From contig CALLUO010000005.1 in assembly GCA_938010425.1 (NCBI GenBank), positions 1 through 64,000 on the forward strand: a stretch of 64,000 nucleotides of DNA. The letters are read 5' to 3'. The stretch comes from an uncultured Elioraea sp. (GTDB lineage: Bacteria; Pseudomonadota; Alphaproteobacteria; Acetobacterales; Acetobacteraceae). A program made the position numbers and the translations under genes. This document shows, one piece after another, positions 18,656-32,674 of this stretch. The notes below the pieces were generated by a model, which ran no database searches, was not told the origin of the DNA, and saw only the letters and a program-made list of their open reading frames with translations. Each line of letters opens with the position of its first letter. The stretch's first letter is position 1.

Positions 18656-18726
18656 CGCTTGATCGCTTGCCCTTTGCCCGACCGGAGGCGCTGGCGGAAG
18701 CCTAGACGTGATAGCGCGCGGCAGGC

Positions 18727-19605
18727 ATGAGCGGCGCGCACAGGGCGCAAGGGGGAAGAGGGGTGCGCGGGCCTTTGCTGATGCTGATCGCGATCGCGCT
18801 GTTCGCCGTGCTGGATACGATCGCAAAGTGGTTGTCGGGGGCCTATAGCTCGGCGCAGGTGATCGCTCTACGCAGCGCGGTCGGCCTCGCACTTGCTGCA
18901 CCGGTCGCGGCGCGGGCTGGTGTCATCGCGCGGGAACGTCTTGCGTTGCACGCGCTGCGCGGCGGGCTCATCCTGAGCTCGGCCTTTTTTTTCTTCCAAG
19001 CTTTCGCGCTCTTGCCCCTGCTCGACGCCTACATCGTCTTCTTTCTTGCCCCCTTCTTCACCATGGGGCTTGCGGTCGCGGTGCTGGGTGAGCGGGTGGC
19101 GCCGCGCGCCTGGGCTTGGGCGGGCTTGGCTTTCCTCGGCGTCCTGGTGCCGATGGTCCCGGCCCTGACGGGTGGGGGAGCGTTGGTCGGCTATCTCTCT
19201 GCCCTGGTTGGCACGGCGGCCACCGCAGGCGTGATGATCACCACGCGCAAGCTTGGCGCGCGCGAAGGGTTGGCGGTGGCGATGGCTGTGCCGGCGCTGT
19301 TGGGCGTGGTCATTTTCGGGCCTGTCGCGGTGCTGGTCTGGGTCGCACCGACGGGGCGCGACCTCGCTTTGCTCCTCGTTAACGGCCTCGTCTGGACAGG
19401 CGCCAACCTCGCGCTCACCGCTGCGGTTCGGGCGACGGAGCCGTCACGGCTAGCCCCGCTCGATTTCACCGCCATGCTCTGGGCTGTGCTATTTGATGCG
19501 CTCGTGTTCGGGGTTTCGCCGAGCTTGCTCGATCTGGTGGGCGCTTTCGTTGTTATCCTTGCCACGCTTGGGCACCAGGCGGAGCACGGATCGAGACCGC
19601 GATGA
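18727..19605 (+). CDS. DMT-family (EamA) transporter
   Basis: Ten-helix drug/metabolite transporter of 292 residues with two EamA repeats (about 17-150 and 160-285). Typical segments are LFAVLDTIAKWLSG in helix 1 and FFLAPFFTMGLAVAVLGERV at the end of the first repeat. The substrate is unknown. It ends nine bases before the left edge of the phage-derived cluster and points towards it. Confidence 0.9.
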   Translation: MSGAHRAQGGRGVRGPLLMLIAIALFAVLDTIAKWLSGAYSSAQVIALRSAVGLALAAPVAARAGVIARERLALHALRGGLILSSAFFFFQAFALLPLLDAYIVFFLAPFFTMGLAVAVLGERVAPRAWAWAGLAFLGVLVPMVPALTGGGALVGYLSALVGTAATAGVMITTRKLGAREGLAVAMAVPALLGVVIFGPVAVLVWVAPTGRDLALLLVNGLVWTGANLALTAAVRATEPSRLAPLDFTAMLWAVLFDALVFGVSPSLLDLVGAFVVILATLGHQAEHGSRPR

Positions 19606-19614
19606 GGGGCGTCG

Positions 19615-19947
19615 TCAGTCGTGCGACAGTTCGGCCTCGCTGCGGCGGGGGCGGGCGCGCGGACCGAGCACGTCGAGCTTTTCCTCGATCCGCATGAGCT
19701 GCATCGACAGGCGGCGGTCGAGTTCGCGCATCATCTGGATCGGCACATAGCCGCGCGCGACCTCGAGCTTAAAGGAGGCGATCTCGGCGCGCAGGTCGGC
19801 TGTTGTTTCCGCATGACGCAACTCGATGCGCTCGATCCGCGCGATCACGTCCCTCTTGATGTCCCACATCAGCTTGAACAGCCCGGCCAGGATGGGCAGT
19901 TCGATCACTCGGATCCACCATTCGTAGCTGATCGCGCTTCCGTCCAT
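19615..19947 (-). CDS. Small membrane-anchored coiled-coil protein, phage-associated
   Basis: A protein of 110 residues with one probable membrane helix near the N-terminus (WWIRVIELPILAGLFKLMW, about residues 10-28), then a charged helical region with heptad-like spacing (about 30-95). Such small proteins often sit near the terminase genes of alphaproteobacterial phages and are sometimes called holin- or XhlA-like, though XhlA has its membrane helix at the other end. It is the last minus-strand gene of the cluster, separated from the large terminase by 311 bases holding an opposite-strand gene. Function unproven. Confidence 0.65.
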   Translation of the reverse strand: MDGSAISYEWWIRVIELPILAGLFKLMWDIKRDVIARIERIELRHAETTADLRAEIASFKLEVARGYVPIQMMRELDRRLSMQLMRIEEKLDVLGPRARPRRSEAELSHD

Positions 19948-19949
19948 GG

Positions 19950-20246
19950 ATGTTACTCCGTCGCTTGCGGCCCGCCCTTGCGCAACGCGCGGGCCGGAAC
20001 GATATCCCCGCTGTGGTCTGGAAGGAGCCCTATTTGGAAACCTGTTGCCGCTCCGCCCTGCACCGGTTGCGCCTAGCAGGGAGGGTGGGCCGCCCGCCAG
20101 GGATGAAGGACGGTCCCTGCCTCGCCCGGCTCTCGGGCATGGGGCTGTGCCGCGAACGCGCGGACGGCTGGTTCGAGATCACTACGGCGGGGGTGGAACG
20201 TCATTGCAGCGAAATCCTCAAAAAAACCGACGCCGCTCTCGCCTAA
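19950..20246 (+). CDS. Hypothetical protein, winged-helix-like C-terminus
   Basis: A 98-residue frame on the plus strand, opposite to all its neighbours in the cluster. The part from about residue 22 on looks coding: VWKEPYLETCCRSALHRLRL and an ending resembling a small winged helix (LARLSGMGLCRERADGWFEI, then TTAGVERHCSEILKK). The first 20 codons look less convincing and a GTG at 20013 may be the true start. No minus-strand frame competes in this gap. It might be a small regulator or a host gene left between cluster genes. I do not recognise the family. Confidence 0.5.
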   Translation: MLLRRLRPALAQRAGRNDIPAVVWKEPYLETCCRSALHRLRLAGRVGRPPGMKDGPCLARLSGMGLCRERADGWFEITTAGVERHCSEILKKTDAALA

Positions 20247-20258
20247 GCGCGCGGAAAC

Positions 20259-21740
20259 TCAGGGGATGAAATCCTCGCGCGCGCGGAAGTTTCCTTGGAA
20301 GCGCCCATCCGTCTCGTAAAGCACTGGTGCGATGCGGGTGAGGCGAACTGGTTCGGCCAGGATGGCACCGGCCACCGCGTCGAGCCCGTCATCGGCCGCA
20401 GCGCGCGCGTCTGGGCGCCATTCGCGCATCTCCTCAATCAGCCGTGTGGCAAACACGCTGCGATGCGCCCACAGCCGCCGCGCTGCAAGGAGCGGCTCGA
20501 AGGCAGCGAGGATTCGTTCCGCTTTCGACCGTGTCGAGGTGCGTTCGACCACGGTGCACGCGACACGTGCCCGCACCATTTCCGCGCGCAACAGGCCGGG
20601 CAGAAAACGGCCCAGGCCATTGTTCTCCACCGTGACCGAAGGAAGGTGAAGCTCCTGCGCAAGGCGCACAACCTGGCGGCAGAGCTGTGTCGCAGCGTCC
20701 GTGCCTGCCCGCGGGTCATGCGTGAGGTAGGCGACGCGGTGCAGGTAGCGCGTTCCCTCGGCGTCGGTGAACAGGGCGGCGAAGACGGAGGCGTCGCCGC
20801 GGCCCGGCGCGCCGAAGGCCGGATCCCAGAACGTCGAGGCGGCAACGAGGCTGCGCCCGCCGAGGAGAAGCCTGAACCCCTGGTTCGCGGCATGCAAGGT
20901 CAGTTCATCCTCGTAGGGAACCATAGCTGCAGGGTCGAGGCGCGCGTCCTCCGGAGGCTGCGGCTCTAGCTGCATTTGAGCGGCGAAGGCACGCGGACCA
21001 ACACGAGCGCGCAGTTCCGCAATCCGTTCTGGAGTGAACCGTTCCGGCCACGCGGATGCTCCTTCCGAGTCGAGGAGGGGAATGACAAGGCGTCGGAAAC
21101 CTGCGAGGAATGGCGGGTCGCGACCGGGTTGCTGGTCGGTGGCGTAGATCGTGTCAGGCGTGTGCGGCGTGCCGATAAAGAGCATTTGACCGCCGGGAAC
21201 AAGCACGAAGGCGATCTCGCCAAGACGCTCGCGCAAATTCGCCCGTTTCGAAGCCGTATCACTGTTTCCTGGCACTTCCACGTCGTCGCAGATCACGACA
21301 TCGGCGCGGCTGCCAGTGATGTTCGCCTCGATCCCGCGCGCGAGCATCGATGGGTCGCGTGATGCGCTGGGCCGGTTGACGGTGAACCGGTCGGCCGCCC
21401 ATTCCCCGCCGTGCCGCGGGTGAAGATGCCGGCAGAATGGATGGCGGCGAATGATCTGGCGCACGTTACGCACCATCCGTGTCGCCAGCCCCTGTTCCGC
21501 CGACAGGACGAGCAGGCGAAGGTCTGGGCGCTGCGACAAAAGCCAGGCGCAGTAAAGACCAACGACTGTGGACTTGCCCGCACCGCGGAAGCACATCAGC
21601 AAAAGGCGCGTCTCCCCCCGCTCCCAAGAGAGCCCAAGCCAGCGCGCAATGCGCAAGTGATGTGCCGGGGTCGCTGCCGTATTCAGGCGGTTCCAGATCC
21701 AGACGAACTCGGGAAAGCGGAGCTCAGTCGGTCCCGTCAT
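20259..21740 (-). CDS. Phage terminase large subunit, T7 gp19-like
   Basis: DNA-packaging motor of 493 residues, apparently complete. The ATPase Walker A is CFRGAGKST (50-58) and Walker B is VVICDDVE (148-155), followed by PGNSDTASKRANLRERL, the pattern of T7 gp19 (ADDVE..SNS). GTPHTPDTIY is the coupling motif. The nuclease domain has acidic residues D306 (WDPAFG), E372 (VENNGLG) and D454 (DDGLDAVAGAI). Every catalytic element is intact, which argues against decay. The start overlaps the stop of the preceding small-terminase gene by four bases. Confidence 0.93.
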   Translation of the reverse strand: MTGPTELRFPEFVWIWNRLNTAATPAHHLRIARWLGLSWERGETRLLLMCFRGAGKSTVVGLYCAWLLSQRPDLRLLVLSAEQGLATRMVRNVRQIIRRHPFCRHLHPRHGGEWAADRFTVNRPSASRDPSMLARGIEANITGSRADVVICDDVEVPGNSDTASKRANLRERLGEIAFVLVPGGQMLFIGTPHTPDTIYATDQQPGRDPPFLAGFRRLVIPLLDSEGASAWPERFTPERIAELRARVGPRAFAAQMQLEPQPPEDARLDPAAMVPYEDELTLHAANQGFRLLLGGRSLVAASTFWDPAFGAPGRGDASVFAALFTDAEGTRYLHRVAYLTHDPRAGTDAATQLCRQVVRLAQELHLPSVTVENNGLGRFLPGLLRAEMVRARVACTVVERTSTRSKAERILAAFEPLLAARRLWAHRSVFATRLIEEMREWRPDARAAADDGLDAVAGAILAEPVRLTRIAPVLYETDGRFQGNFRAREDFIP

Positions 21741-22030
21741 GTATCGTCCTCGCCTGTCTCATCGGCGCAAACGGCAGCCCGCGCCGCGGCGACGAGGGCA
21801 AGACGGTCGTCGTCGCTTTGTCCTTCCGTCGTCGGCACCTCGGTGATCCTCGCGATCTTTAATAGCAGGTCGAGATGGGCGAGAGCCGCCTTGCAGGCCG
21901 CATGGTGAGCGGCAAAATTTTTCGCATCGGTCGCGATCGGCGCCGAGGCGGCAAAAGCCTGGTAGGAGGAGATGACACGTTCGATCGCCCGGTCGATCTC
22001 GGCGCTGAGGCGACTGCGCAGCCGGCTCAC
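21737..22030 (-). CDS. Putative terminase small subunit, gp18-like
   Basis: A 97-residue, mostly helical protein (AIERVISSYQAFAASA, FAAHHAACKAALAHLDLLLK) of the size and position of T7 gp18, directly before the large terminase. The assignment rests mainly on position, since small terminases diverge quickly. The start is GTG at 22030, overlapping the stop of the fibre gene as GTGA; its own stop overlaps the large terminase start as ATGA. The unbroken coupling fibre-small-large terminase suggests balanced production. Confidence 0.7.
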   Translation of the reverse strand: MSRLRSRLSAEIDRAIERVISSYQAFAASAPIATDAKNFAAHHAACKAALAHLDLLLKIARITEVPTTEGQSDDDRLALVAAARAAVCADETGEDDT

Positions 22031-24318
22031 GCTTTGACCACGCGGACCCGAAGCGTGCCTCCCGCGAGATCGATCGCGATCGTCGAGCGGTTCCAGGCAA
22101 TCACCGTCACCACGCCACCGGCACCGACGGTGGCCAGGAACACCACCCCGGTGGTGGAGACGGAGAAAGAAGCCTGAACGAAGTCACCGGGAAACGCGCC
22201 AGGGACGGAGATGTTGAGCTGCGTCGTCGCACCTGGAGCGAGCGAGGGAGGGTCCCAGCTCGTTTCGACGACGATCTCGCGCGACCCATGCGGCATGCCG
22301 GGTAGGCCGTAGAGGAGCATTGGCGCATACCTTGGATCGCAGTAGAGCCGAAGAGCGCGCACTTCATAGTCGCGATTGACACGGGCTACCCCGATCACCG
22401 CAGTGGCGACCTCCTCCGTGAGCCGGATCGCCTGCAGGCGCGTGAGCGTGGCATCGGCCAGATCGGCCGAGCTTTGCCACCAGCGTGCGGTCGGGTTCCA
22501 AACGAGCGACTGGTTGGAAGCGCGAGCAAGGGGGCCTGCGCTGTCAGTCAGCAGCTGTCCCGAGGCGTCGAAGCATTGCACGAACAGTCGCGGGTCGTCG
22601 GCATCGACGGCCAGAGCAAAATCCTTACAGCTGCGCGTGTCGACCACGAAACCGAGCCCGCGCGATGAGCCGAGGATGACGCCGCGGGACGTCAGGGCGT
22701 AACCATCGAGGCCAGGGAAGAGAAAATCGGTGAGTGTTGAGGGGGTGCCAGAGACCAAGGTGCTGACGCAAGCTAGCTGGTCGAACCCCAAAGCGTTGGA
22801 TTGCCAGCGGAAGGCCGCCGCGCGGAGGTTCGGCACGTTGCCGATAAGACGCGTAGCTGCGATGTGGGCGGCCGCTTGGTGATGCGGGCGGACGATGGCG
22901 CCCGCGCGGGTCGTGTTTGGCCCATAAGCAACGTCAAGGGTATATGCCTGGCTGGCCCAGGCGACGTCATACCGGCAATCGGTCGCGTTGGCCTCATGCA
23001 GCGCGACAATGGGAGAACATCCTTCCATGCGGATGTCGCGGGCGATGATCGCCCGCGCATCGACCTCGACAAGGAAGGGAATGGCGCGGTTCGTGCCTTG
23101 CTGGCGAAGCTCGAAATTCTGCGCGTCAAAGATGTGGCGATTGTGTTCTTTGTAAGCGTCTGGCTCGGCAGAGAACCGCACTCCGAAGCGGTCGAGCGCG
23201 GGCCAAGAGGAGGAACTGACGGCGAAATGTCCGCCATGGTAACGAACCGAAGCATTCCAACCCTCAGCGGTCGCGCAGCGAACATCCAGACCAATGCGAT
23301 TGTCAACGATGCGGCCGAAGATGAACGTCGTGTCCTCGACGCCGCGGCGATCTCCAAGACTCCGCACGCCGATCGTGAACCGAGTTGCTTCGGCAATGTA
23401 GATGAGGCTTGCGTCGACGTTTCGCACAAGCACGCCGATCTCGCGCTCGTCAAGCCACGAAGAGAGGGAAGAGCGAGTGACTCGGATATTCCAGTAAAGC
23501 TTTTCGCCATTGCGCGCCGAACCACCATCCCCGAGAGTGAGGGCGGGTTCCGGTTCGGCGAGATCGGCAACGATGCGGCCTTGCATGACCAGGCCAGGCG
23601 CAGCTCCGGGTAGAACGAGGCCGCGCGTGATGCGGAATGTTCCGTCCGGGATCAGCAGGGTGCGGCCGAGCGCCCCGGCGGCGGCGAAGGCGGCCGCCAG
23701 CGCCTCGGTATCGTCGACGACGCCGTCGCCGACGGTGCCGAAATCCGCCGCAGACAACGTTTCGGCGAGCTTGTCCTGGGCCGTTCGCAGGACTGACCGA
23801 GCGCCATCCTGGCGGAACAGAATTTGACCGCCACCGGCCTCCGCTGGATAGAGCTGGATCGAGCCTCCGGAGTCGAAGCCCAACAGACGCGAGGCGCGCG
23901 CGGTGCGCGGCGGCAGGATGAGGGGGCCGCCGAAATCGGTCGGCTCGGTCTGTATCGCGCGCGTAAGATCGTCTGCGATCTGCTGCAGCGCGGCCGTCTG
24001 ATAGTCGAGCTCGTCGTTTAGCACGCGCGCGCGAAGCTCACCGCTCTCCTGAAAGTCGCTGACGCGCTCGATGCGCAAAAGCCGGCGCAGCGTGATCACG
24101 GCACCGGCCCGCGGTGGCGCGGTGAAGATGACTGCTCCGCCCTCGGAACGGCCCGCACCGCTCACCGTGTAGCCGTCCGTTTCGCGCACGCCATCGACGA
24201 AGACCTGCAAATCGGTTGGCTTGAAGATGGGGAAAGGATAGGTGAAGACGGTTTGCGAACCAGAGGCGACGTACTGGATACGCGGCGCAACGTCGCCGAT
24301 CACGATGTGCTCGGGCAT
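22027..24318 (-). CDS. Phage tail fibre/tailspike with pectate-lyase-type region
   Basis: Receptor-binding protein of 763 residues. Residues about 1-150 match the T7 tail-fibre N-terminal particle-attachment domain (IQYVASGSQTVFTYPFPIFK, LQVFVDGVRETDGYTV). From about residue 190 a pectate-lyase-type beta-helix start is seen (DFGTVGDGVVDDTEALAAAF, then LLIPDGTFRITRGL), a fold common in polysaccharide-degrading tailspikes. The rest is beta-rich and unrecognised. The start at MPEHIVIGDVAPR follows the family; the frame stays open upstream through the gp14-like gene. It implies binding or cleaving a surface polysaccharide. Confidence 0.87.
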   Translation of the reverse strand: MPEHIVIGDVAPRIQYVASGSQTVFTYPFPIFKPTDLQVFVDGVRETDGYTVSGAGRSEGGAVIFTAPPRAGAVITLRRLLRIERVSDFQESGELRARVLNDELDYQTAALQQIADDLTRAIQTEPTDFGGPLILPPRTARASRLLGFDSGGSIQLYPAEAGGGQILFRQDGARSVLRTAQDKLAETLSAADFGTVGDGVVDDTEALAAAFAAAGALGRTLLIPDGTFRITRGLVLPGAAPGLVMQGRIVADLAEPEPALTLGDGGSARNGEKLYWNIRVTRSSLSSWLDEREIGVLVRNVDASLIYIAEATRFTIGVRSLGDRRGVEDTTFIFGRIVDNRIGLDVRCATAEGWNASVRYHGGHFAVSSSSWPALDRFGVRFSAEPDAYKEHNRHIFDAQNFELRQQGTNRAIPFLVEVDARAIIARDIRMEGCSPIVALHEANATDCRYDVAWASQAYTLDVAYGPNTTRAGAIVRPHHQAAAHIAATRLIGNVPNLRAAAFRWQSNALGFDQLACVSTLVSGTPSTLTDFLFPGLDGYALTSRGVILGSSRGLGFVVDTRSCKDFALAVDADDPRLFVQCFDASGQLLTDSAGPLARASNQSLVWNPTARWWQSSADLADATLTRLQAIRLTEEVATAVIGVARVNRDYEVRALRLYCDPRYAPMLLYGLPGMPHGSREIVVETSWDPPSLAPGATTQLNISVPGAFPGDFVQASFSVSTTGVVFLATVGAGGVVTVIAWNRSTIAIDLAGGTLRVRVVKA

Positions 24319-24334
24319 GGTCGAGGCCTCGGAG

Positions 24335-24790
24335 TCAGAGGTTGAGCAAGGATCGGAAGCTCTGCGAAAGCCCCGCCGCGAGCTGGTTGCCGGCGCGGAT
24401 GAAGGGGGTGAGATTGCCGGTCGGCTCGAGCAAGGACCGCCGCCCTGCCGAGACGCGAAGCGCGAATGCGCGTTCGTCGAAGGCGTCCTGCTGGGCGGCC
24501 TCTTGTTCGAGCCCCGAAAGCAAGGCAGCGCTCGAGCCATCGCCCGAAGCAACACCGCCGGCAGCGAGACGGGCGCGGGTGGAGGCGATCGTGCGGGCGA
24601 GCATGTCGCGACGCCGACGCTGTGCCTCATCCGTTGCGGCGCGAAGCTGTGCCTCGCGTGCCTGCTCCTGCTGCTGGATCGCCTGCTGCTGGGCTGCAAA
24701 GGCTTGCTTCTGCGCCTGGTATTGCTGCTGGGCCCCGACGAGACCGGCCACGCCGGTGACGATCGAAGCGATGGGAACGAGCTGAGCCAT
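24335..24790 (-). CDS. Internal virion protein, gp14-like
   Basis: A 151-residue protein with a short hydrophobic N-terminus (PIASIVTGVAGLVGAQ) and a Gln-rich helical stretch (QYQAQKQAFAAQQQAIQQQE), then Arg-rich helices. Size, composition and place between the nozzle and the fibre genes match T7 gp14, part of the internal core ejected into the cell envelope. The start overlaps the nozzle gene stop (TGATG). The large core partners gp15 and gp16 that normally follow are missing here. Confidence 0.75.
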   Translation of the reverse strand: MAQLVPIASIVTGVAGLVGAQQQYQAQKQAFAAQQQAIQQQEQAREAQLRAATDEAQRRRRDMLARTIASTRARLAAGGVASGDGSSAALLSGLEQEAAQQDAFDERAFALRVSAGRRSLLEPTGNLTPFIRAGNQLAAGLSQSFRSLLNL

Positions 24791-26670
24791 CAGCCGTTGA
24801 GCCTTATCTCGGTGGTGACGGAAAGCAGCGTCATCGGCAGCGGCACGTCGCTTTCGATGCGCCAGAGGGGAGAGGCGACGTCACGGCGCCAGCCGAGGGC
24901 GCGAATCGTACGATCGCCGGTAAAGCGCGGCGGTTCGGCATCGAGCACACCTGGGCCGAGGCGGCGGAAGGGAAGGGCGATCAGACCACGGCCAAGATCG
25001 ACCGAAAGCGCAGCCGTCTCGAGCAGGCGGAAGGTGACCGCGACGAGACGAACGGGGCCGGTGCGCGCGCCAACCGGAGTTAGAAGCTCAGGCGGCAGCG
25101 GCTCGACGACGTGGGTATAAGCCAGCCCCACTTCGAGCCGTCTCGCCGGCGGGTAGGTTTCGATTCGGCCGCCGATAACGGTGTCTCGTCCGCGTGGCGC
25201 ACCGTCGCCGACGATAGTGACCTCGCGGCCGTCGAGATGGCCAAGCCCGGACCAGACCGTGGCTCCGGCCGGGTTCTCGCCGGTGACGGCGGCATCCGTC
25301 AGCACCGAGTCATCGAAGCACTCCAGACGATGCGTGCCGAAGCGCTCTGTCACCACATAGACCGTGCCGTCGATTTCGCTGACAGAACGGAAGGCACCCT
25401 GGGTGACCTGTCTTGTCCAGGCCGTGACCTGTTCGGCGCGGTAGAGGGTGAGGGTGGCGAGCGAACCATCGGCCATGACGATGTGCAGCAAACGCCGCGT
25501 TTGGTCGTAAGCCATGCTGATCGGATCGCGTACGAGATGCCGGGCCAGTACGGCGAGATCGGCCGCCTGGTAGGCCTGCTCGACGTCCGTGTAGGCGAAT
25601 TCGTGGACGGAACGGCCCGAGCGCGCGACGAAGATGGTCGCCCCGTCGACGTCGACGGGAGGTACTGTGCGATCGACAGGGCTGCCGATTCGCGTTTGGC
25701 GATTGAGCTGGATGTTCGCAGGCGTGAGCGGGTCGCCGGAGACCATCCACTCCGCACCGGAGGTGAACACCTGGAGGTGTCGACCTGAGAAGACGGCGCG
25801 GATCGCGTTCACCTGGTCCGAGACGAGAGCGAACTCAATTGCCTCATCGTCAAGCCCGGTGCCGAGATCGAAGTTGAACAGGTCTCCTGTGCGCGAGAGC
25901 CATAGCCGATTCGGCAGATCGCGCGATCCACCGATGACCAGTCGGTCCTGATGGAAGCAGAGCGAGACGGGCCAGCCACGCGCGGGCGAGAAAGCCGCCT
26001 CGTCCCAGTCGGTCGTTGGTGCGGTGCCAGAGAGAGGCTCCAGCACGGTCGCGCTGGCAGAAGTGGCGGAACCGACCCAATCGATGCGCACTCGCTTCTT
26101 ACCGATGCGGAATGTCACCCCGACATGGGCGGGCAGGAAGACGGGCGCCGAGGCCGTGACAGTGATGCTGCCGACAGTGTCGGAAGGGGTGAGGGTCACC
26201 GTCTCAGGCGCAAACCTGAAGAATGGCTCGGCGCGGAACGTCCAGGGCGTGATGAGCCATGCGGTATGGCTCGTGCGGGTGATGCGCTGCGGTGCCACAT
26301 CCGGGTGAACGACGAGAAGCGTATCGGCGCTTTGCGTCCAGGAAAGGTTGCTCAGATGCGCCTCCGTCCAGGGGGTCGTCATTACGGCTATCTCCGCATC
26401 GCCGCGCCAAACCCCAAGGCGACGGTCGGTCAGCACCAAGAGATAGGTCTGTTCGGTCGAGAACTCGAAGGCGATCAAACGGGCGCGACCCGGCAGCATG
26501 CCGAGATGGCGTAGGCCGGGGCGGCGGCAGAGCCCGCCTGTTGGCAGGATGAAAACGTTGGACAGACGACCGGCCCCATTCTCGTAGGCGCGCAGATCGC
26601 TCCGCCCAATCAGTTCCGGCGAAAGCTCGCCGGCGGCGAAGCTCGTCTTGATTCGCCTCAGTTGGTTCAT
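24790..26670 (-). CDS. Podovirus tail nozzle protein, gp12-like
   Basis: Tail tubular protein B of 626 residues. The N-terminus has the family signature (KTSFAAGELSPELIGRSDLR, then NVFILPTGGLCRRPGLRHLG) found in gp12/nozzle proteins of many podoviruses, followed by a beta-propeller-like body (RLIAFEFSTEQTYLLVLTD, VCFHQDRLVIGGSRDLP-type segments). With gp11 it forms the short tail tube below the portal. One base separates it from the gp11-like gene upstream and its stop overlaps the gp14-like start. Confidence 0.9.
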   Translation of the reverse strand: MNQLRRIKTSFAAGELSPELIGRSDLRAYENGAGRLSNVFILPTGGLCRRPGLRHLGMLPGRARLIAFEFSTEQTYLLVLTDRRLGVWRGDAEIAVMTTPWTEAHLSNLSWTQSADTLLVVHPDVAPQRITRTSHTAWLITPWTFRAEPFFRFAPETVTLTPSDTVGSITVTASAPVFLPAHVGVTFRIGKKRVRIDWVGSATSASATVLEPLSGTAPTTDWDEAAFSPARGWPVSLCFHQDRLVIGGSRDLPNRLWLSRTGDLFNFDLGTGLDDEAIEFALVSDQVNAIRAVFSGRHLQVFTSGAEWMVSGDPLTPANIQLNRQTRIGSPVDRTVPPVDVDGATIFVARSGRSVHEFAYTDVEQAYQAADLAVLARHLVRDPISMAYDQTRRLLHIVMADGSLATLTLYRAEQVTAWTRQVTQGAFRSVSEIDGTVYVVTERFGTHRLECFDDSVLTDAAVTGENPAGATVWSGLGHLDGREVTIVGDGAPRGRDTVIGGRIETYPPARRLEVGLAYTHVVEPLPPELLTPVGARTGPVRLVAVTFRLLETAALSVDLGRGLIALPFRRLGPGVLDAEPPRFTGDRTIRALGWRRDVASPLWRIESDVPLPMTLLSVTTEIRLNG

Positions 26671-26671
26671 C

Positions 26672-27241
26672 TCAGCCGCGGGCCCCGATCAAAGAGAAAT
26701 CTTGCAACGCAAGCGGCGTATCCTGCTGGCTGTCGGTCAGCCGTGCTGCGCGGAACTCGGCCTCGGCGAGGCGGAACAGGAGTTCAGCCCGTGCGGTGTT
26801 TTCGGTCAGCGGAATGGTGAATTCGGCAGCAAGACGCGCGATCAGGGCGGAATCGAAAAAGGGCGGAAAGTTCTGCTCCGGCGGGCGGAAGATGTAGGTG
26901 AGCACGATCTCCGGCGGGTCGGCGTGCAGGCGGTTTTCGGCGATACGGTAGGGAACGCCGCGACCCTGGCCCGGTCGGCCGGCAGAGAGTGCGCGTAGAA
27001 AGTCGGCGGGCAGCTGGAAGGCGTGTGCGTAGTCCGCGATAGGAGACGCGATCAGGCGGGGCAGCGACATTTGTGCGGTCGCGAACGACCATGGGTAGGC
27101 AGAGAGCAGAGAATCGCGAACTGAAGGGTAGAGGTTAGCCGCGACTTCGGCCTCGGCAGTGCCTTCGTCGAACGAGGCGATCGGGGTGGCACCGATCTTG
27201 AGCAGGGCGCGCGCGCAAAGAGCGAGAGCGGAGAGCGCCAT
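26672..27241 (-). CDS. Tail adaptor protein, gp11-like
   Basis: Tail tubular protein A of 189 residues, a gatekeeper ring joining portal and nozzle. Family features include the Ala/Leu-rich start with LLKIGATPIASFDEGTAEA, the block YPSVRDSLLSAYPWSFA and the C-terminal LTENTARAELLFRLAEAEF. Its position between capsid and gp12 matches T7. A strong hairpin (27296-27329) lies between the capsid stop and this start. Confidence 0.88.
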   Translation of the reverse strand: MALSALALCARALLKIGATPIASFDEGTAEAEVAANLYPSVRDSLLSAYPWSFATAQMSLPRLIASPIADYAHAFQLPADFLRALSAGRPGQGRGVPYRIAENRLHADPPEIVLTYIFRPPEQNFPPFFDSALIARLAAEFTIPLTENTARAELLFRLAEAEFRAARLTDSQQDTPLALQDFSLIGARG

Positions 27242-27295
27242 CGGTCGGTCTCCTCGGGACGACGACGAAACGGTGAGTGCGGGAAATGGAAAGGA

Positions 27296-27329
27296 GGCGG
27301 CGCCCTGAGTGCGGGCTCAGAGCGCCGCC
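27296..27329 (-). terminator. Hairpin just after the capsid gene
   Basis: GGCGGCGCCCTGAG pairs with CTCAGAGCGCCGCC around a six-base loop with a single mismatch, 15 bases past the capsid stop. No T-run follows on the minus strand, so it may be an attenuator or an mRNA-stabilising end rather than a full terminator. In T7 the terminator T-phi sits at this same place behind gene 10. Confidence 0.55.
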
Positions 27330-27343
27330 CAGGGATCAGCGGG

Positions 27344-28177
27344 TCATTCTCTGCAGCGCAGGCGCACGACCCCTTCGGGATCGATCAGCACCGCGCCCTG
27401 GCTCATCATGTTGTTGACGAACCATGCCGCCCGCTCGCCGTGCCAGGTGATGTCGGTCTGCACTTCGGCTCCCACGGCGTGGCCGATCGCGGTGCGGTGG
27501 TACCAGTAGCAGAAGCGAACGGTGCCGGTGCGTGTCAGTCCTGAATGCGGGATCCAGAGGGTACCGAGCCAGCGCTTGGCCTGTGTGCCGCGCCAGGGGA
27601 GCTCGTCTGCGCCGACGTAGTCGGCATTCGCAAACTCAGGGATTCGGAGCAGGTCAGACCACTGCTTCCAGCCGATCACGGCGTAGCGCTCGCCATCGTC
27701 CGGCACGTCGGCCTGGCCGAGCATCTCGAAGGCGAGCAGAATCTTTTCTCTCGTCAGGCCGTCGCCGTCGGTGAGGCCTGGATCGGTGCCGGTCGCCTCG
27801 CGCGTTGCTTGATCCAGCGCCGCAATGATCAGCTCATCCGTCTTTCGCCCGAGGGCGTAAGCGCCGGCATTAGCGATCACTGCGCGCTCATCGTGGTTGA
27901 CCTTGAGCTCATCGAGTTTGTCGATCCAGTCACCCGCGTAATAGTCGGCGAGGAAGCACTCCACAGGTGAGTGGTCGAGGTTCATCACAGGTACTGCGCC
28001 GTGGCGGGCCTTGGTGCCGGCAACTCCCTTGCCGACGCGTTGGAACACGGTCGAGGCGCCCTTGACCCCAGACTTGGAGCGGACGGTTGGGCGGAGCTTG
28101 GAGCCGAGGCGCTGGTAGGCCTCGTGCACCTCCGTTTGGAAGTGCTTGACGAAGGCGCGGTCGATGGACGTGGACAC
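27344..28177 (-). CDS. Major capsid protein (podovirus type)
   Basis: A protein of 277 residues, assigned from its place between scaffold and tail adaptor and from resemblance to capsid proteins of alphaproteobacterial podoviruses. The N-terminus is SIDRAFVKHFQTEVHEAYQR and the central part contains DDGERYAVIGWKQWSDLL, as in phage shells that use the HK97 fold. It is shorter than T7 gp10 (about 345). A GC-rich spacer of 251 bases precedes it and a hairpin follows, setting the capsid off from its neighbours. Confidence 0.83.
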   Translation of the reverse strand: MSTSIDRAFVKHFQTEVHEAYQRLGSKLRPTVRSKSGVKGASTVFQRVGKGVAGTKARHGAVPVMNLDHSPVECFLADYYAGDWIDKLDELKVNHDERAVIANAGAYALGRKTDELIIAALDQATREATGTDPGLTDGDGLTREKILLAFEMLGQADVPDDGERYAVIGWKQWSDLLRIPEFANADYVGADELPWRGTQAKRWLGTLWIPHSGLTRTGTVRFCYWYHRTAIGHAVGAEVQTDITWHGERAAWFVNNMMSQGAVLIDPEGVVRLRCRE

Positions 28178-28277
28178 GGATCGGTCTCTCGCGATCGGGT
28201 TGCAGGGGTGGGTGGTGCGGGCCCGGCGCGGTTGTCGCGCTCACGAAGCGAGGCGCGGCCGGTGCCGGCCCGGAAAG

Positions 28278-28369
28278 CCTGCGGGCCGCAGGGGTTGACC
28301 GCAGGCGGAAGAGAAGGCAGCCGGGGCGAGCGCGGGGGAGGATCAGGCGGGCACGCTCGAGCCCCGGCT
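28278..28369 (-). other. Two inverted repeats between scaffold and capsid genes
   Basis: The 251-base spacer 28178-28428 has no gene. It holds GCCTGCGG paired with CCGCAGGC (about 28278-28306), and a longer repeat AGCCGGGGCGAGCG (28319-28332) paired with CGCTCGAGCCCCGGCT (28354-28369). They may fold in the mRNA leader of the capsid gene or terminate upstream transcripts. No T-run follows. Confidence 0.5.
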
Positions 28370-28428
28370 GCAACGCCCGCGCGGGAGGCCAGGCGCGGGC
28401 AAAATGAAACAGAAAGGCAACGGGCCGG

Positions 28429-29187
28429 TCAGCGCTCCTCAGGGAACAGCTGTCGGAAGCCTTCCGCCACGCGCTCAACGAGCGCCGGATCGCGCCGGCG
28501 CCAGTAGCGCGGGTCGCGCATCAGGGCGCGCAGCTCATCCTCGTTCGGCGCGCGCGCGGGCTCCGCGTCTTTCAGGATGCCTGGTTCGTTGCTCTGCATC
28601 ATCCGCTGCATGGCAAGCACGCCTTCGTAGGTTGACGAGAGCGCCTCGAACACCGCCTCCGGCAGGTTCGCCCTGCCCCAGGCGGCGAGCTGCTTGGCCG
28701 CGCGCTTCCAGCGCTCCTCGCCGCCGAAATGCTCTTTCAGTCGCTCGATCTGCCGCTCAGCCTCGAAGAGCTGCGCCGCCTCAGCGATCAGCGGCAACAG
28801 GCGCTCGGCGGCGAGGTCGTAGACGAGCTGTACCTGGGCTGGGGTGAAGCCGGCTTCATGCAGCCTGCGATTGACGTCCGGATCGGCCGTGACGAGAGGG
28901 TGACGAGCTTCAATGTGATAGTCGTCCGGGCTGTCTGGTACGCCAAGGGCGCGCAGGAAGCGGCGACGCTCCTCCTCGTCGGCGCCCTCACCTGGCAGAC
29001 TGACCATGCGCGAGAGCTTGCGCTCGAGCTCGCGGTAAGACTTCAGCAGGGCATCGAGGCGGACCTCGCCTGTCTCCTCGTCCCAGAACTTCTCAGGCAC
29101 CTCGGGCGGACAGGGTGTGCGGCGCTTCGGCTCGGGGCGAGTGGGCTTGTCATCCTCGAGCGTCATTGTGATCAAGTTGTCGGCCAT
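28429..29187 (-). CDS. Capsid scaffolding protein, gp9-like
   Basis: Acidic, highly helical protein of 252 residues. The block FWDEETGEVRLDALLKSYRE followed by LERKLSRM is a hallmark of podovirus scaffolding/capsid-assembly proteins. It directs shell assembly and then leaves. It lies between portal (15-base gap) and capsid genes, as gene 9 does in T7. The C-terminus ends in a basic helix (RDPALVERVAEGFRQLF), the usual capsid-binding end. Confidence 0.88.
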   Translation of the reverse strand: MADNLITMTLEDDKPTRPEPKRRTPCPPEVPEKFWDEETGEVRLDALLKSYRELERKLSRMVSLPGEGADEEERRRFLRALGVPDSPDDYHIEARHPLVTADPDVNRRLHEAGFTPAQVQLVYDLAAERLLPLIAEAAQLFEAERQIERLKEHFGGEERWKRAAKQLAAWGRANLPEAVFEALSSTYEGVLAMQRMMQSNEPGILKDAEPARAPNEDELRALMRDPRYWRRRDPALVERVAEGFRQLFPEER

Positions 29188-29202
29188 CGGTCTTCGTCCT
29201 TG

Positions 29203-30690
29203 TCAGGCGAGGGCATCGGGGGCGGGGGGATCAGGGGCAAGGGTGGCAAAAGCAGCGCGTTCCTCCGCCTCGGACACGACGAGGTCAGGCGGCACGCCAT
29301 AGAGCGAAGCGACCCAGCGCGAGGCAGCGGCGAGGTCGGCGGTGCCGGCGGCGGCGGGGCCGAGCGCGCGAACCACCTCAAGCCACGCGAGCGTGCCGGA
29401 GGCTTCTGTTCGCGCCTGCCACTGCGCCAGCGGCGACCGCCAGACGATCGCTGCCTCCGTTCCGTCGAGCGCAAAGCGCGGCACGAGGCCGCGCCGACGC
29501 AGCACAGCAAGCGAGCGCTCGATCAGCGGATAGAGAAGTTCAGTTTGCAGCCGCCCGAAGGTGGCGCTAAGCAGGCGGGCCATCTCAGCCGAGCGCTCCA
29601 TCACCTCGGTCGCGGTCATGCGCGTGCTCTGAACCGGGCCCAGCCGGTCGGCGAGCAAGGCGTGACGAATGCGCGCGCGAAGGTCGTCGAGCACGATCTG
29701 GCTGACGTCGAATCGGCCCGGTGCGGCGAGCGGGGTGAGGCCAGACGAGCCGACCGCCTTCGGAATGATCGCGCCGGGCACGAGGCGGATATTGGCGGGA
29801 TTGAGCACGCCGTCATCGTCTGCTTGCCAGATCCCCGTCACGGCGATCGAGGCATTCTTCAGGATGAGCTCGACCACCTTGTTGGCGGTGCGGATGTCAG
29901 GCAGCGCCTTCATGATCGGGGATCTGCCGTAGGTCTCCCCGGGCGCCTTCATCCAGCGGAAGGCGATGAAGGGCGAAGCCTCGAAACGGCCGCGGGCGAG
30001 CACGACGGGCTCGTCGTCGCCGCGCAGGATCGCCGCGTAGGCATAGGCGCTGCCATCCGGCATCACTGCCTCGATGACGGTGTGGCGAGCCGCCTCTCCC
30101 CCGCTCTCTTCCTTGCCCAGCCGCTCGGGCAGACGCGCGGAGGGGAAGCGGGAGCGGAGTTCTGCCACCGTCAGGCGGAGCATGCGGAAGACCGTGTCGA
30201 GCGGTCGTGTTGGCCCGTCTTCGAGCGCGAGGTCGGCCAGCGGGACGGCGGTGAAGCGCAGCGCGCTCGGCTCGCCGGGAGGAAGCTCTTCGACCGCGAG
30301 GCAAGCTGTGCCCGCGATGACGAGGTCGAGGAAGCACTGGTGCAGTTCGACCACCAAGTTGGAGCGTTCGAACTCCCCGGCCAGAGTCTCAGCGGCGGTT
30401 TCCAGCCTTGCCGCGGCTGTGTCGCGGGCCAGGGTAGGGGGCAGTGCACGGCCAGGAACAAAGGAGAACCAGCGCGTCCATGGCGGGGTGAGCTCGGCAA
30501 GCAGGGAGGCGGCGAGCTGTTCGACGGCGTCGGGTGCGGTGCCATCGTACAGTGGGATCGTGCCGTCGCTTGAGCGCGCCGGGAGAGCGTGGTCGTAGCA
30601 GTCCTTCCAGAGGGCTTCCCAGGGGCGGCGCCTGGCGAAGGCCCGCTCGGCCTGAGCCAGGATGGTTTCGGGCGAAAGAGAGCGCGTCAT
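29203..30690 (-). CDS. Head-tail connector (portal) protein, gp8-like
   Basis: Portal ring protein of 495 residues of the podovirus Head-tail_con family. Diagnostic segments are YDGTAPDAVEQLAASLLAEL near the N-terminus, GRSPIMKALPDIRTANKVVE mid-protein, and TRMTATEVMERSAEMARLL then LQTELLYPLIERSLAVLRRR in the C-terminal half. The start is ATG at 30690, which overlaps the stop of the small upstream gene (ATGA). Intact length and motifs suggest a working portal. Confidence 0.93.
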   Translation of the reverse strand: MTRSLSPETILAQAERAFARRRPWEALWKDCYDHALPARSSDGTIPLYDGTAPDAVEQLAASLLAELTPPWTRWFSFVPGRALPPTLARDTAAARLETAAETLAGEFERSNLVVELHQCFLDLVIAGTACLAVEELPPGEPSALRFTAVPLADLALEDGPTRPLDTVFRMLRLTVAELRSRFPSARLPERLGKEESGGEAARHTVIEAVMPDGSAYAYAAILRGDDEPVVLARGRFEASPFIAFRWMKAPGETYGRSPIMKALPDIRTANKVVELILKNASIAVTGIWQADDDGVLNPANIRLVPGAIIPKAVGSSGLTPLAAPGRFDVSQIVLDDLRARIRHALLADRLGPVQSTRMTATEVMERSAEMARLLSATFGRLQTELLYPLIERSLAVLRRRGLVPRFALDGTEAAIVWRSPLAQWQARTEASGTLAWLEVVRALGPAAAGTADLAAASRWVASLYGVPPDLVVSEAEERAAFATLAPDPPAPDALA

Positions 30691-30938
30691 TCGCCGAGCA
30701 GCGACTTGCGGCCGACGGCAGGCAGAGACTCGGCGAGAACGCCGCGCCACGAGGTGGCGACGGTGCTGGCACGGCCGAGCCGGCGCGCTTCGAGCGTGGC
30801 GAGGCGGCGGGCGCGGTCTTCGTCGCCGCCGCCTGCAGCGGATGCGGCGGCAGCCGTGCCTGCCGAGTTGGGTCGCGGGGCCGGCTGGGTCGCGACATGC
30901 GGCGCTGGCGGCTTCGGCGCGCGGAATAGGCCACCCAT
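30687..30938 (-). CDS. Small virion/tail-assembly protein, gp7.3-like
   Basis: An 83-residue Ala/Pro-rich protein starting MGGLFRAPKPP and ending VGRKSLLGE. Small proteins with this flexible composition and a C-terminal K-(S/T)-LLG end precede the portal gene in many T7-like phages, where gp7.3 is a tail-assembly component. The assignment is by position and pattern only. The ATG at 30938 is preferred; the open frame continues upstream through the hairpin. Its stop overlaps the portal start. Confidence 0.65.
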   Translation of the reverse strand: MGGLFRAPKPPAPHVATQPAPRPNSAGTAAAASAAGGGDEDRARRLATLEARRLGRASTVATSWRGVLAESLPAVGRKSLLGE

Positions 30939-30981
30939 CGTGCTCACTCCATGATCTAGCGGTGAGGTGCGGAAGAAAATC

Positions 30982-31010
30982 CGGCGGCCGGGTTTTTTGC
31001 CCGGCCGCCG
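30982..31010 (-). terminator. Strong hairpin between leader genes and morphogenesis genes
   Basis: A perfect 11-base stem, CGGCGGCCGGG with CCCGGCCGCCG, around a loop of six T and one G (30993-30999). On the minus strand it is followed by GATTTTCTTCC, a weak T-run, so it could end or attenuate transcripts coming from the two leader genes before the structural genes. Confidence 0.65.
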
Positions 31011-31075
31011 TAGTCGTTTAGGGGAGGGAGAGGATGGCGCCATCGGGGCAAAGGACGCCCCTTGGCGCGATCCTT

Positions 31076-31516
31076 TTAGGCGGAGTGGGCGTTGCTGGTC
31101 AAGACTTTTTTCCTATCACTCGACGCAAGAAGCATCGCAAGCCGGCGATAAAGGCCGCGCGGTGTCAGCACGAATCCATCGTGCCCAAGCAGGCGAAGGC
31201 AGACAATCACACAGGTGAAGGGGGCGATGAGCGCAAGCGAGCGCCGGCGCGGCGGGGTAGGAACAAATGGCCCAAGCACCCGAAACCCGGCCCGGCGCCA
31301 GAACTCGGGCAGATCGAAATCCGGTGCGACACCGAGCCGTTCGACCACCATCCGCCCAGCCAAAGGGTCAACCACCGTCCAGCCCTCGTTATCGGCCAGC
31401 GCGGCGAAGCAGTGGCGGAACCCCGGCCGCAACAGACGCTGCCAAGCAAGGTCGGCCCGGCCGGAGAAAGCGATCCATATGAGCGGCTCCGCGCCGCGAC
31501 CGGGGAACCGGCTCAC
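31076..31516 (-). CDS. Conserved phage-cluster leader protein 2, possible papain-like fold
   Basis: A 146-residue protein of no family I can name. The GTG at 31516 is chosen because it overlaps the preceding stop as GTGA. Features: WQRLLRPGFRHCFAALAD, WTVVDPLAG, APFTCVIVCLRLLG and LTPRGLYRRL. The order His35-Asp50-Cys102 is that of a permuted NlpC/papain-like hydrolase, and similar small proteins occur beside alphaproteobacterial phage genes, but this is speculation. If enzymatic it could process peptidoglycan or proteins. The hairpin at 30982-31010 follows it. Confidence 0.6.
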   Translation of the reverse strand: MSRFPGRGAEPLIWIAFSGRADLAWQRLLRPGFRHCFAALADNEGWTVVDPLAGRMVVERLGVAPDFDLPEFWRRAGFRVLGPFVPTPPRRRSLALIAPFTCVIVCLRLLGHDGFVLTPRGLYRRLAMLLASSDRKKVLTSNAHSA

Positions 31517-31887
31517 GCCACAATTCCCTTCATCTTCAACGGCCACTCCAGGCGCGACATCGCCTCGCGCCAGAGCACGAGCGCGGTACGATCTCCCGGA
31601 TGATGCGGATCGGGCGCCCGCTGCAAATCGCCGAAGCGGCGCAGCACGCGCAGATGCGCGATCTCAATCCGGCGCTGACGGTACAGACGATCAAGGCAGC
31701 GGATCACGTCGTCGGGTTCGCAGGGCCGAATCTTCAGGCCCTGACCGGCGACGATGCGCGCACCGGCATGGCGCGCGGCCAGCGCGGCCATGGTCCAAAA
31801 CCAGGCCTCTTCTGCGCTGGCGAAAGGTTCGGCGCGCGAGAGGTCGGCGAGGACGGGACCGGAGCGGCGTGTGGCTGCAGCGGGCAT
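31513..31887 (-). CDS. Conserved phage-cluster leader protein 1, unknown function
   Basis: A 124-residue protein with a conserved-looking core: AEEAWFWTMAALAARHAGAR, RPCEPDDVIRCLDRLYRQRR, then HLRVLRRFG and WREAMSRLEWPLKMKGIVA. I recall this pattern from unnamed alphaproteobacterial proteins but know no function. The ATG at 31887 is the first gene start behind the SOS box, 24 bases downstream of it. Its stop overlaps the GTG of leader protein 2. As the first SOS-controlled gene of the cluster it may be regulatory. Confidence 0.65.
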   Translation of the reverse strand: MPAAATRRSGPVLADLSRAEPFASAEEAWFWTMAALAARHAGARIVAGQGLKIRPCEPDDVIRCLDRLYRQRRIEIAHLRVLRRFGDLQRAPDPHHPGDRTALVLWREAMSRLEWPLKMKGIVA

Positions 31888-31910
31888 GGCGAACCTCGTG
31901 GATACGTCTC

Positions 31911-31925
31911 GAACAAAACAGGAAC
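31911..31925 (-). promoter_or_regulatory. LexA SOS box (GTTC-N7-GTTC)
   Basis: On the minus strand the sequence is GTTCCTGTTTTGTTC, a perfect match to the alphaproteobacterial LexA operator, two GTTC half-sites in direct repeat with seven bases between. It lies right after the predicted -10 element and 24 bases before the first leader gene, so bound LexA would block transcription of the phage-derived operon until DNA damage. Confidence 0.82.
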
Positions 31926-31954
31926 ATTTACCCACGGTTGCGCCAGGATCGCAA
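31926..31954 (-). promoter_or_regulatory. Predicted promoter of the phage-derived operon
   Basis: Minus strand: TTGCGA (31954-31949), 17 bases, then GTAAAT (31931-31926). This resembles a sigma-70-type promoter with a good -35 and a fair -10. The SOS box follows immediately, covering the expected start site. Confidence 0.55.
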
Positions 31955-32002
31955 GCCTAATCGGAACTCTTTCCTAATGCGCGTTCCGCGAAGTTGTAGG
32001 AC

Positions 32003-32017
32003 CATGTCCCTAACATG
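32003..32017 (+). promoter_or_regulatory. Inverted repeat over the S24 repressor start codon
   Basis: CATGT-CCCTA-ACATG is a perfect 5-5-5 inverted repeat whose right arm contains the ATG of the S24 gene. It could be an operator for autoregulation. Short repeats like this can arise by chance. Confidence 0.35.
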
Positions 32018-32665
32018 AGTCTCCGCCACGAAGACGTCTGGAAGGCGATCGACGCCCTCGCCGCCGAACACGGGCTCAGCCCCTCAGGGCTCGCCCGCAA
32101 GGCAGGGCTCGATCCAACGACCTTCAATCCCTCCAAGCGCAAGCAAGGCGGCAAGCCGCGCTGGCCCTCCTTCGAGACCATCGTTAAAGCCCTCGACGCC
32201 GTCGGAGCACCGCTTGAAACCTTCATCGCTCTGGCCACCGGTGGGACCGCCCAGGCACGTCGGCCCGGGGCACTGGGGCCGCGGCGCGTGCCGCTGATCG
32301 GCCTCGCCCAGGCGGGGTCGGATGCCTTTTTCGACGATGCGGGCTATCCAACGGGGGCAGGGTGGGACGAGATCGAACTCCCCTCGATCAGCGACCCCAA
32401 CGCCTACGCTCTCGAAATCAGCGGCGACTCAATGGAACCTGTCTATCGCGACGGAGACGTGATTGTCGTCTCGCCGAATGCGCCGACCCGCCGCGGCGAC
32501 CGCGTGGTGGTGAAGACGCGCCAAGGCGAGGTGATGGCGAAGGAGCTCGTGCGCAAATCCGCCCGCAAGATCGAGCTCGCCTCCCTCAACCCCGCCTATC
32601 CAGGGCGAAGCCTGGATGTCGACGAGGTCGCCTGGATCGCCCGCATCGTCTGGGCAAGCCAGTAG
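32015..32665 (+). CDS. LexA-like S24 peptidase repressor
   Basis: A 216-residue repressor with an N-terminal helix-turn-helix (about 1-65; LSPSGLARKAGLDPTTFNPS) and a C-terminal S24 peptidase domain. The Ser is S139 in ISGDSMEP and the likely Lys is K176 in EVMAKEL, 37 residues apart as in LexA and UmuD. An Ala100-Gly101 bond (AQAGSD) is in place for RecA-stimulated self-cleavage. It is divergent from the phage-derived operon and is the natural candidate for a second control layer. Related stand-alone genes occur in many alphaproteobacteria, so a host role is also possible. It converges on the MprF-like gene nine bases downstream. Confidence 0.9.
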   Translation: MSLRHEDVWKAIDALAAEHGLSPSGLARKAGLDPTTFNPSKRKQGGKPRWPSFETIVKALDAVGAPLETFIALATGGTAQARRPGALGPRRVPLIGLAQAGSDAFFDDAGYPTGAGWDEIELPSISDPNAYALEISGDSMEPVYRDGDVIVVSPNAPTRRGDRVVVKTRQGEVMAKELVRKSARKIELASLNPAYPGRSLDVDEVAWIARIVWASQ

Positions 32666-32674
32666 CGCTCGCCC

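Follow-up and report, generated by a model that had tools for sequence, protein, structure and literature searches.

A T7-type podovirus particle cluster inherited with the chromosome in Alphaproteobacteria, a candidate SOS-controlled gene transfer agent

In a 64,000-nucleotide stretch of DNA from an uncultured Elioraea species of the family Acetobacteraceae (contig CALLUO010000005.1, positions 1 to 64,000; hereafter the window), a minus-strand cluster of 13 intact genes at 19615-31887 encodes a T7-type podovirus particle together with a small and a large terminase subunit (TerS and TerL). Within the Alphaproteobacteria, this element is mostly vertically inherited and under purifying selection, and it is very probably a domesticated particle whose genes are held by selection for a use of the host. 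Since the cluster has stayed intact, has descended along with the chromosome in some 35 families and appears to be under DNA-damage control, it probably serves its host as a particle and does not live as a parasite; packaging and transfer of host DNA is the most likely predicted role. The explanation that fits best, and to which we assign a probability of roughly 0.6, is a domesticated gene transfer agent (GTA) of T7 type, or a close analogue, that is induced by the SOS response.

Gene content of the particle cluster

The order of genes from portal to TerL is the late gene order of phage T7, and family scans identified TerL, portal, scaffold, tube and nozzle proteins of T7 type. The portal, or head-tail connector (29203-30690; PF12236, E = 7e-124, 414 bits), is followed by the scaffold or capsid assembly protein (28429-29187; PF05396, E = 8e-17), the major capsid protein (27344-28177; PF19821, E = 2e-87, 294 bits), a gp11-like tail tube protein (26672-27241; phrog_394, E = 6e-44) and a gp12-like tail nozzle protein (24790-26670; phrog_376, E = 5e-144). 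The next gene (24335-24790), for which none of the family libraries tried gave a match, is assigned to a gp14-like virion protein by position and size; it has homologs at all 40 of the Acetobacteraceae loci compared, and its place in the nearest phage is occupied by a 159-aa phrog_418 protein. The series is completed by a tail fiber or spike with a T7-type N terminus (22027-24291, start codon uncertain; phrog_1640, E = 7e-28, and a weak match to PF03906), a candidate TerS that directly precedes TerL and has 4-bp overlaps (21737-22030; phrog_31793), and a T7-type TerL (20259-21740; phrog_38; NF033889, termin_lrg_T7, 421 bits against a cut-off of 150). Walker and nuclease motifs of TerL are intact in 35 of 38 homologs, and overlaps between genes of the cluster are tight (-4, -4, -1, -4 and -4 bp). 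An earlier note on this DNA, made from the sequence alone, had described intact, tightly overlapping minus-strand genes in T7 order with catalytic residues kept, and on these points its description holds. It is corrected at the upstream end, where the first gene of the operon is g124 (31513-31887, minus strand, 124 aa), and it had left out a divergent S24 repressor, with which the control region extends to 32665.

Several small genes and intervals complete the minus-strand layout. An 83-aa protein encoded upstream of the portal (30687-30938), whose gene shares 4 bp with the start of the portal gene, has homologs at 36 of the 40 loci, and a 110-aa protein at the downstream end (19615-19947; phrog_29007; homologs at 38 of 40 loci), in which a coiled coil and a single membrane segment were recognized by eye, is a candidate holin or spanin. 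The 251-bp interval between scaffold and capsid (28178-28428) carries no assigned gene, and a 614-aa open reading frame (ORF) on the plus strand (28729-30573) was taken as an antisense artifact of GC-rich coding. The source assembly comprises 2.39 Mb in 101 contigs and is 88.6% complete.

No tRNA gene was found in the 64-kb window and no direct repeat of at least 18 bp, as would mark att sites, across 18600-32800; no integrase was found in the cluster, whose unassigned gaps are too small to hold one; and no replication genes were recognized in the window's cluster, nor do the mapped loci leave room for them. These absences had been listed in the earlier note and stand as listed, although the list omitted the T7 internal-core ejection proteins gp15 and gp16, for which the cluster has no gene (gp15 was not searched genome-wide). 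Outside the cluster, matches to gp16 (phrog_342) in 18 carrier genomes are confined to its lysozyme-like N-terminal part, with the exception of one weak internal match in a single genome (G045). With gp15 and gp16 absent, any entry of DNA into a recipient must proceed in another way than in T7. No phage single-subunit RNA polymerase was recognized in the cluster either; PF00940 matched none of 16 genomes, but as the controls also gave no match, this result is not decisive.

Distribution, inheritance and selection

The portal gene is present in 119 of 397 Acetobacteraceae genomes and in 28 of 102 genera, mostly as a single copy and at 56-95% identity. In an even sample of 385 genomes across the Alphaproteobacteria, 57 genomes from 35 families (by our count) yielded a strong capsid match (E < 1e-95, 55-77% identity), among them genomes of 0.9-1.5 Mb. 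Named carriers are Roseomonas, Neoroseomonas, Pseudoroseomonas, Falsiroseomonas, Belnapia, Siccirubricoccus, Roseococcus, Rubritepida, Caldovatus and Dankookia, as well as Azospirillum, Telmatospirillum and Niveispirillum. Across the 40 family loci gene order is constant and nearly all genes are present, and lengths are close to constant at nearly all loci (capsid 275-279 aa, tube 188-193 aa, nozzle about 626 aa, fiber about 760 aa; some TerS and gp14-like entries, which were wrong ORF picks, are disregarded). Many of these loci also have one chromosomal site in common, between pyrD (DHODH)/HAD/DMT and mprF/lysK/dinG, and pyrD/HAD or lysK/dinG adjoin the cluster outside the Acetobacteraceae too. 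Most class-level loci carry the same cluster, again with unchanged gene order and similar lengths, together with its divergent repressor, while some are rearranged or lie beyond the reach of the profiles.

Ratios of nonsynonymous to synonymous substitution (dN/dS), calculated by the Nei-Gojobori method with our own script and with some outliers from wrong ORF picks disregarded, were 0.015-0.19 for the capsid (about 0.02 within Elioraea), 0.08-0.19 for TerL and 0.07-0.30 for the portal, against 0.03-0.24 for lysK in the same pairs. Synonymous divergence (dS) of the cluster genes equals that of the flanking genes lysK and mprF; between the window and one related locus (L033), for example, it was 0.28-0.66, compared with 0.48 and 0.55 in the flanks. 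A tree built from five cluster genes for 50 genomes agrees with the rpoB tree in patristic distances (r = 0.87; permuted maximum 0.38) and has 22 of 47 splits in common with it (0.2 at random). The earlier note had proposed that conserved position across related genera and dN/dS below 1 in portal, capsid and terminase genes would mark a particle kept by selection for the host, and that presence in one strain only with decayed genes, or an integrase with att sites in related copies, as in an ordinary prophage, would speak against this. Related genera have the locus too, many at the same site; its genes are not decayed, integrase and att sites were not found, and dN/dS is far below 1, so that the proposal of selection for a host use is now well supported.

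Genomes without the portal retain an S24 repressor near pyrD, and four family members without the particle (L274-L277) still hold both g124 and the repressor beside pyrD. The repressor, often with g124, that is left at particle-free sites marks these as deletion scars and not as empty attachment sites. In the particle-free families f2 and f15, the catalytic dyad of the repressor is partly gone, a loss also reported for RogA of Caulobacter, and in f10 (genome G405), which carries the RcGTA marker described below, the dyad is retained.

Some related records and copies depart from this pattern. Class-level copies at L256, L258, L263 and L265-L269 are rearranged or recognized in part only; three of these (L265, L266 and L268), in complete or near-complete 0.9-Mb genomes, represent a rearranged version in which there are two TerL-like matches and the portal lies on the opposite side. 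At one family locus (L052, genome G024) an insertion of about 3.9 kb separates the portal block from nlp, the gene that follows g124. A second, distant portal (33-37% identity) occurs in five family genomes (G351:C6, G047:C74, G312:C22, G059:C259 and G044:C45), and these are probably true prophages of a related type. At least 80 'viral' contigs in IMG/VR, all of 16.2 kb or less and many of about 12 kb, carry a close capsid homolog; they are probably the chromosomal element, extracted as a provirus. Finally, a record of 5 kb labeled 'Bacteriophage sp.' and derived from human faecal samples (MT838907, our L233) has a capsid 59% and a portal 52% identical to those of the window.

The control region

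Divergent from the operon, on the plus strand at 32015-32665, lies a RogA/LexA-like repressor with an S24 peptidase domain (PF00717, E = 4e-24) and a helix-turn-helix (HTH) domain inferred from its N-terminal sequence; the LexA-type cleavage site Ala100-Gly101 and the Ser139/Lys176 dyad are retained in carriers. A minus-strand SOS (LexA) box, GTTCCTGTTTTGTTC (31911-31925), stands 38 bp upstream of g124, and boxes of the form GTTC-N7-GTTC were found in 30 of 40 intergenic regions (0.0034 expected per region), mostly 35-48 bp from the g124 start. In the same genome, this motif also precedes imuA, a ribonucleotide reductase gene and a PA0069 radical-SAM gene. An exact box was found neither at recA, which had none within the stretch read, nor at lexA, which has a 7/8 match just upstream; this match and the motif upstream of the three other genes support an SOS-regulon role here. 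A GGAA-N4-TTCC palindrome at 31963-31974, the only such site in the window, matches the published RogA operator. As a general operator of the element it was rejected, as it occurs at 6 of 39 loci and is limited to Elioraea and close relatives.

The two genes nearest the repressor were characterized through structure models. The AlphaFold2 model of g124 (pLDDT 84; 17 residues invariant in 34 homologs) has the phage 21 antiterminator Q21 as its top matches in the Protein Data Bank (6p1b, 6p1a and 6p18; Z = 6.2-6.3, next 2.7), at 7% identity across 84-89 residues, and g124 is therefore predicted to be a Q21-like transcription antiterminator. The product of nlp (31076-31516, minus strand; model pLDDT 86) is a predicted papain-like hydrolase, with the papain-like amidase 6v98 as top structural match (Z = 7.0; runner-up 4.6) and with His35 and Cys102 invariant across 31 homologs, and it could be a lysis enzyme. 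For both models the clear first rank of Q21 and of the amidase comes from the second aligner only, Foldseek having given no significant match.

At the boundary between these early genes and the portal block, a minus-strand terminator hairpin of 11 GC pairs followed by ATTTTCTT occupies 30982-31010. A strict hairpin with a T-run separates nlp from the portal block at 29 of 39 loci, as against 1 of 780 shuffles, and a similar second hairpin in the capsid/tube interval, which in the window has 15 pairs (27295-27330, minus strand), recurs at 15 of 40 loci, as against 2 of 800 shuffles. Taken together, the control layout reads as a system in which the repressor and LexA come off, the early genes come on and antitermination carries transcription into the late genes.

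Proposed function and alternative explanations

On the reading that we prefer, DNA damage would activate RecA, LexA would come off its box at 31911, the RogA-like repressor encoded at 32015-32665 would be cleaved or displaced, whereupon g124 and nlp would be transcribed. Acting as a Q-like antiterminator, g124 would allow RNA polymerase to read through the 30982-31010 hairpin and on into the genes from portal to TerL, and small T7-like heads would assemble. TerL would then fill these heads with host DNA, because no element genome or replication exists; lysis of the cell would be aided by nlp and the 110-aa membrane protein; and the released particles would bind kin through the conserved fiber, DNA entering perhaps by way of the recipient's own DNA-uptake system, unlike in T7. 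A gene transfer agent, which the earlier note had put forward as a candidate, is the best-fitting function because of the RogA-type repressor, the SOS box, the antitermination layout and mutual exclusion with RcGTA. Among the 385 class genomes, the RcGTA-type tail gene TIGR02218 occurs in 56 and the capsid in 57, with no co-occurrence where 8.3 would be expected (Fisher 6e-5, with no control for phylogeny); TIGR02218 is thus absent from all 57 class carriers, as it is from the window's own genome.

Against this assignment stand several observations. The portal is absent from about 70% of the family genomes sampled, the SOS box from about a quarter of the loci, and the cluster has no ejection protein of gp16 type. 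Only about half of the splits are common to the cluster and rpoB trees and 23 supported split pairs are incompatible between them, so that some horizontal transfer or noise exists. The exclusion figure ignores kinship among genomes, the Q21 match is modest (Z = 6.3) in a class of helical folds that reach middling Z by chance, and particles, packaged DNA and transfer are predictions from sequence.

The loss of ejection proteins would also fit a domesticated particle that does not deliver DNA but kills or blocks adsorption, being released under SOS control and bound by relatives, with gp15 and gp16 lost because no DNA has to enter. The retention of head, tail, fiber and terminase without gp15 and gp16, the presence of the SOS box and the precedent of PBSX in Bacillus, as described in PMC12946183, make this a serious if rather unlikely explanation; yet TerL (with its motifs intact in the proportion given above), portal, capsid and scaffold are all conserved, although a tail that only kills could do without them, and the fiber is constant in length and not hypervariable. 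It is improbable that a past GTA is now held for some other role in the host, such as protection against related phages. The class-level copies that are rearranged or partly recognized would fit such a change of use, but PADLOC gave no match to a defense family, and selection acts on the entire late operon and its control region, not on a single gene.

Mobile elements fare less well. Ordinary or cryptic prophages entering the same site repeatedly would account for the clear phage ancestry of the genes, whose nearest complete phages are 33-45% identical, for some of the tree conflict and for patchy presence within the family. This explanation is already contradicted, and very improbable, in that integrase, att repeats, tRNA and replication genes are missing as set out above, dS equals that of the flanking genes and particle-free sites keep the repressor. 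A phage satellite dependent on a helper would match the size of about 12 kb and the absence of replication genes of its own; satellites, however, have genes for integration and, as a rule, for replication or for hijacking, and they use the particle of the helper, whereas here a full particle set is inherited vertically with nothing for mobility, and we regard a satellite as scarcely credible.

A broader proposal, which we advance tentatively and at rather less than even odds, is that Alphaproteobacteria hold a second, ancient GTA of T7 type, with a particle unrelated to that of RcGTA, which predates many families, excludes RcGTA and has a control region from which RogA possibly came. Descent of RogA from this region is suggested because S24 repressors of the same family occupy the pyrD-lysK site in particle-free genomes, including one carrier of RcGTA. 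If this is true, the class has domesticated two DNA-carrying particles independently, one standing in for the other from lineage to lineage, with repressors perhaps of a common family, and GTAs extend to many bacteria seemingly without reports of them (Roseomonas and its kin, Azospirillum and streamlined genomes of 0.9-1.5 Mb). Particle release would be tied to the SOS response, many IMG/VR 'viruses' of about 12 kb would probably be host genes, and a comparison of two unrelated solutions would make it possible to test why such particles are kept by bacteria.

Comparison with known systems

In the searchable literature, which leaves out most subscription papers, no earlier description of this element was found. 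A 2025 peat-moss study (PMC12142844) reported regions in Acetobacteraceae that resemble prophages and contain an S24 peptidase and a DHOD gene, and their P2/Mu-like baseplates show that they are not this particle. The nearest complete phages are pelagiphages of the Hodr (EXVC031P)/HTVC010P type, with which the cluster has in common the order portal, scaffold, capsid, tube, nozzle and gp14; the Hodr capsid is 45% and its portal 33% identical. Hodr, however, is a 34-kb phage with gp15/gp16-type proteins after gp14, accessory genes and a TerL of another family (phrog_2). Phage 21 offers a parallel to the predicted control, its Q protein being the top structural match of g124, and in the cluster a conserved terminator stands between g124 and the late genes; the match of the g124 model is at 7% identity and Z = 6.3.

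The earlier note had known of no T7-like counterpart among GTAs, which holds for T7-type elements in the searchable literature; a podovirus-like, GTA-like element, FpGTA of Faecalibacterium prausnitzii, has been published (January 2026; PMC12946183). Like the present cluster, FpGTA has genes for both terminase subunits (TerS and TerL), the portal, the scaffold and the capsid, within about 10 kb (PMC12946183). It differs in belonging to a Gram-positive gut bacterium of another phylum, in its two separate operons and in its lineage, which as far as described is not T7-type; moreover, packaging of about 8.5-9 kb of host DNA has been shown experimentally for FpGTA (PMC12946183), whereas for the element described here it is a prediction.

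RcGTA and CcGTA, the GTAs of Rhodobacter and Caulobacter, are likewise alphaproteobacterial, vertically inherited and without replication or integration genes. The Caulobacter GTA is controlled by the LexA-like repressor RogA and the antiterminator GafZ (PMC9632790, PMC11150451), a combination of repressor and antitermination that the control predicted here parallels. RogA of Caulobacter crescentus, as published, is a 213-aa HTH and S24 LexA-like protein whose GGAA-N4-TTCC operator occurs also in Elioraea, but it is without cleavage residues, whereas the repressor of the window keeps both Ala-Gly and Ser/Lys. The RcGTA and CcGTA particles are siphovirus-like, whereas here capsid, portal, tail and terminase are all of T7 type and the control genes adjoin the cluster.

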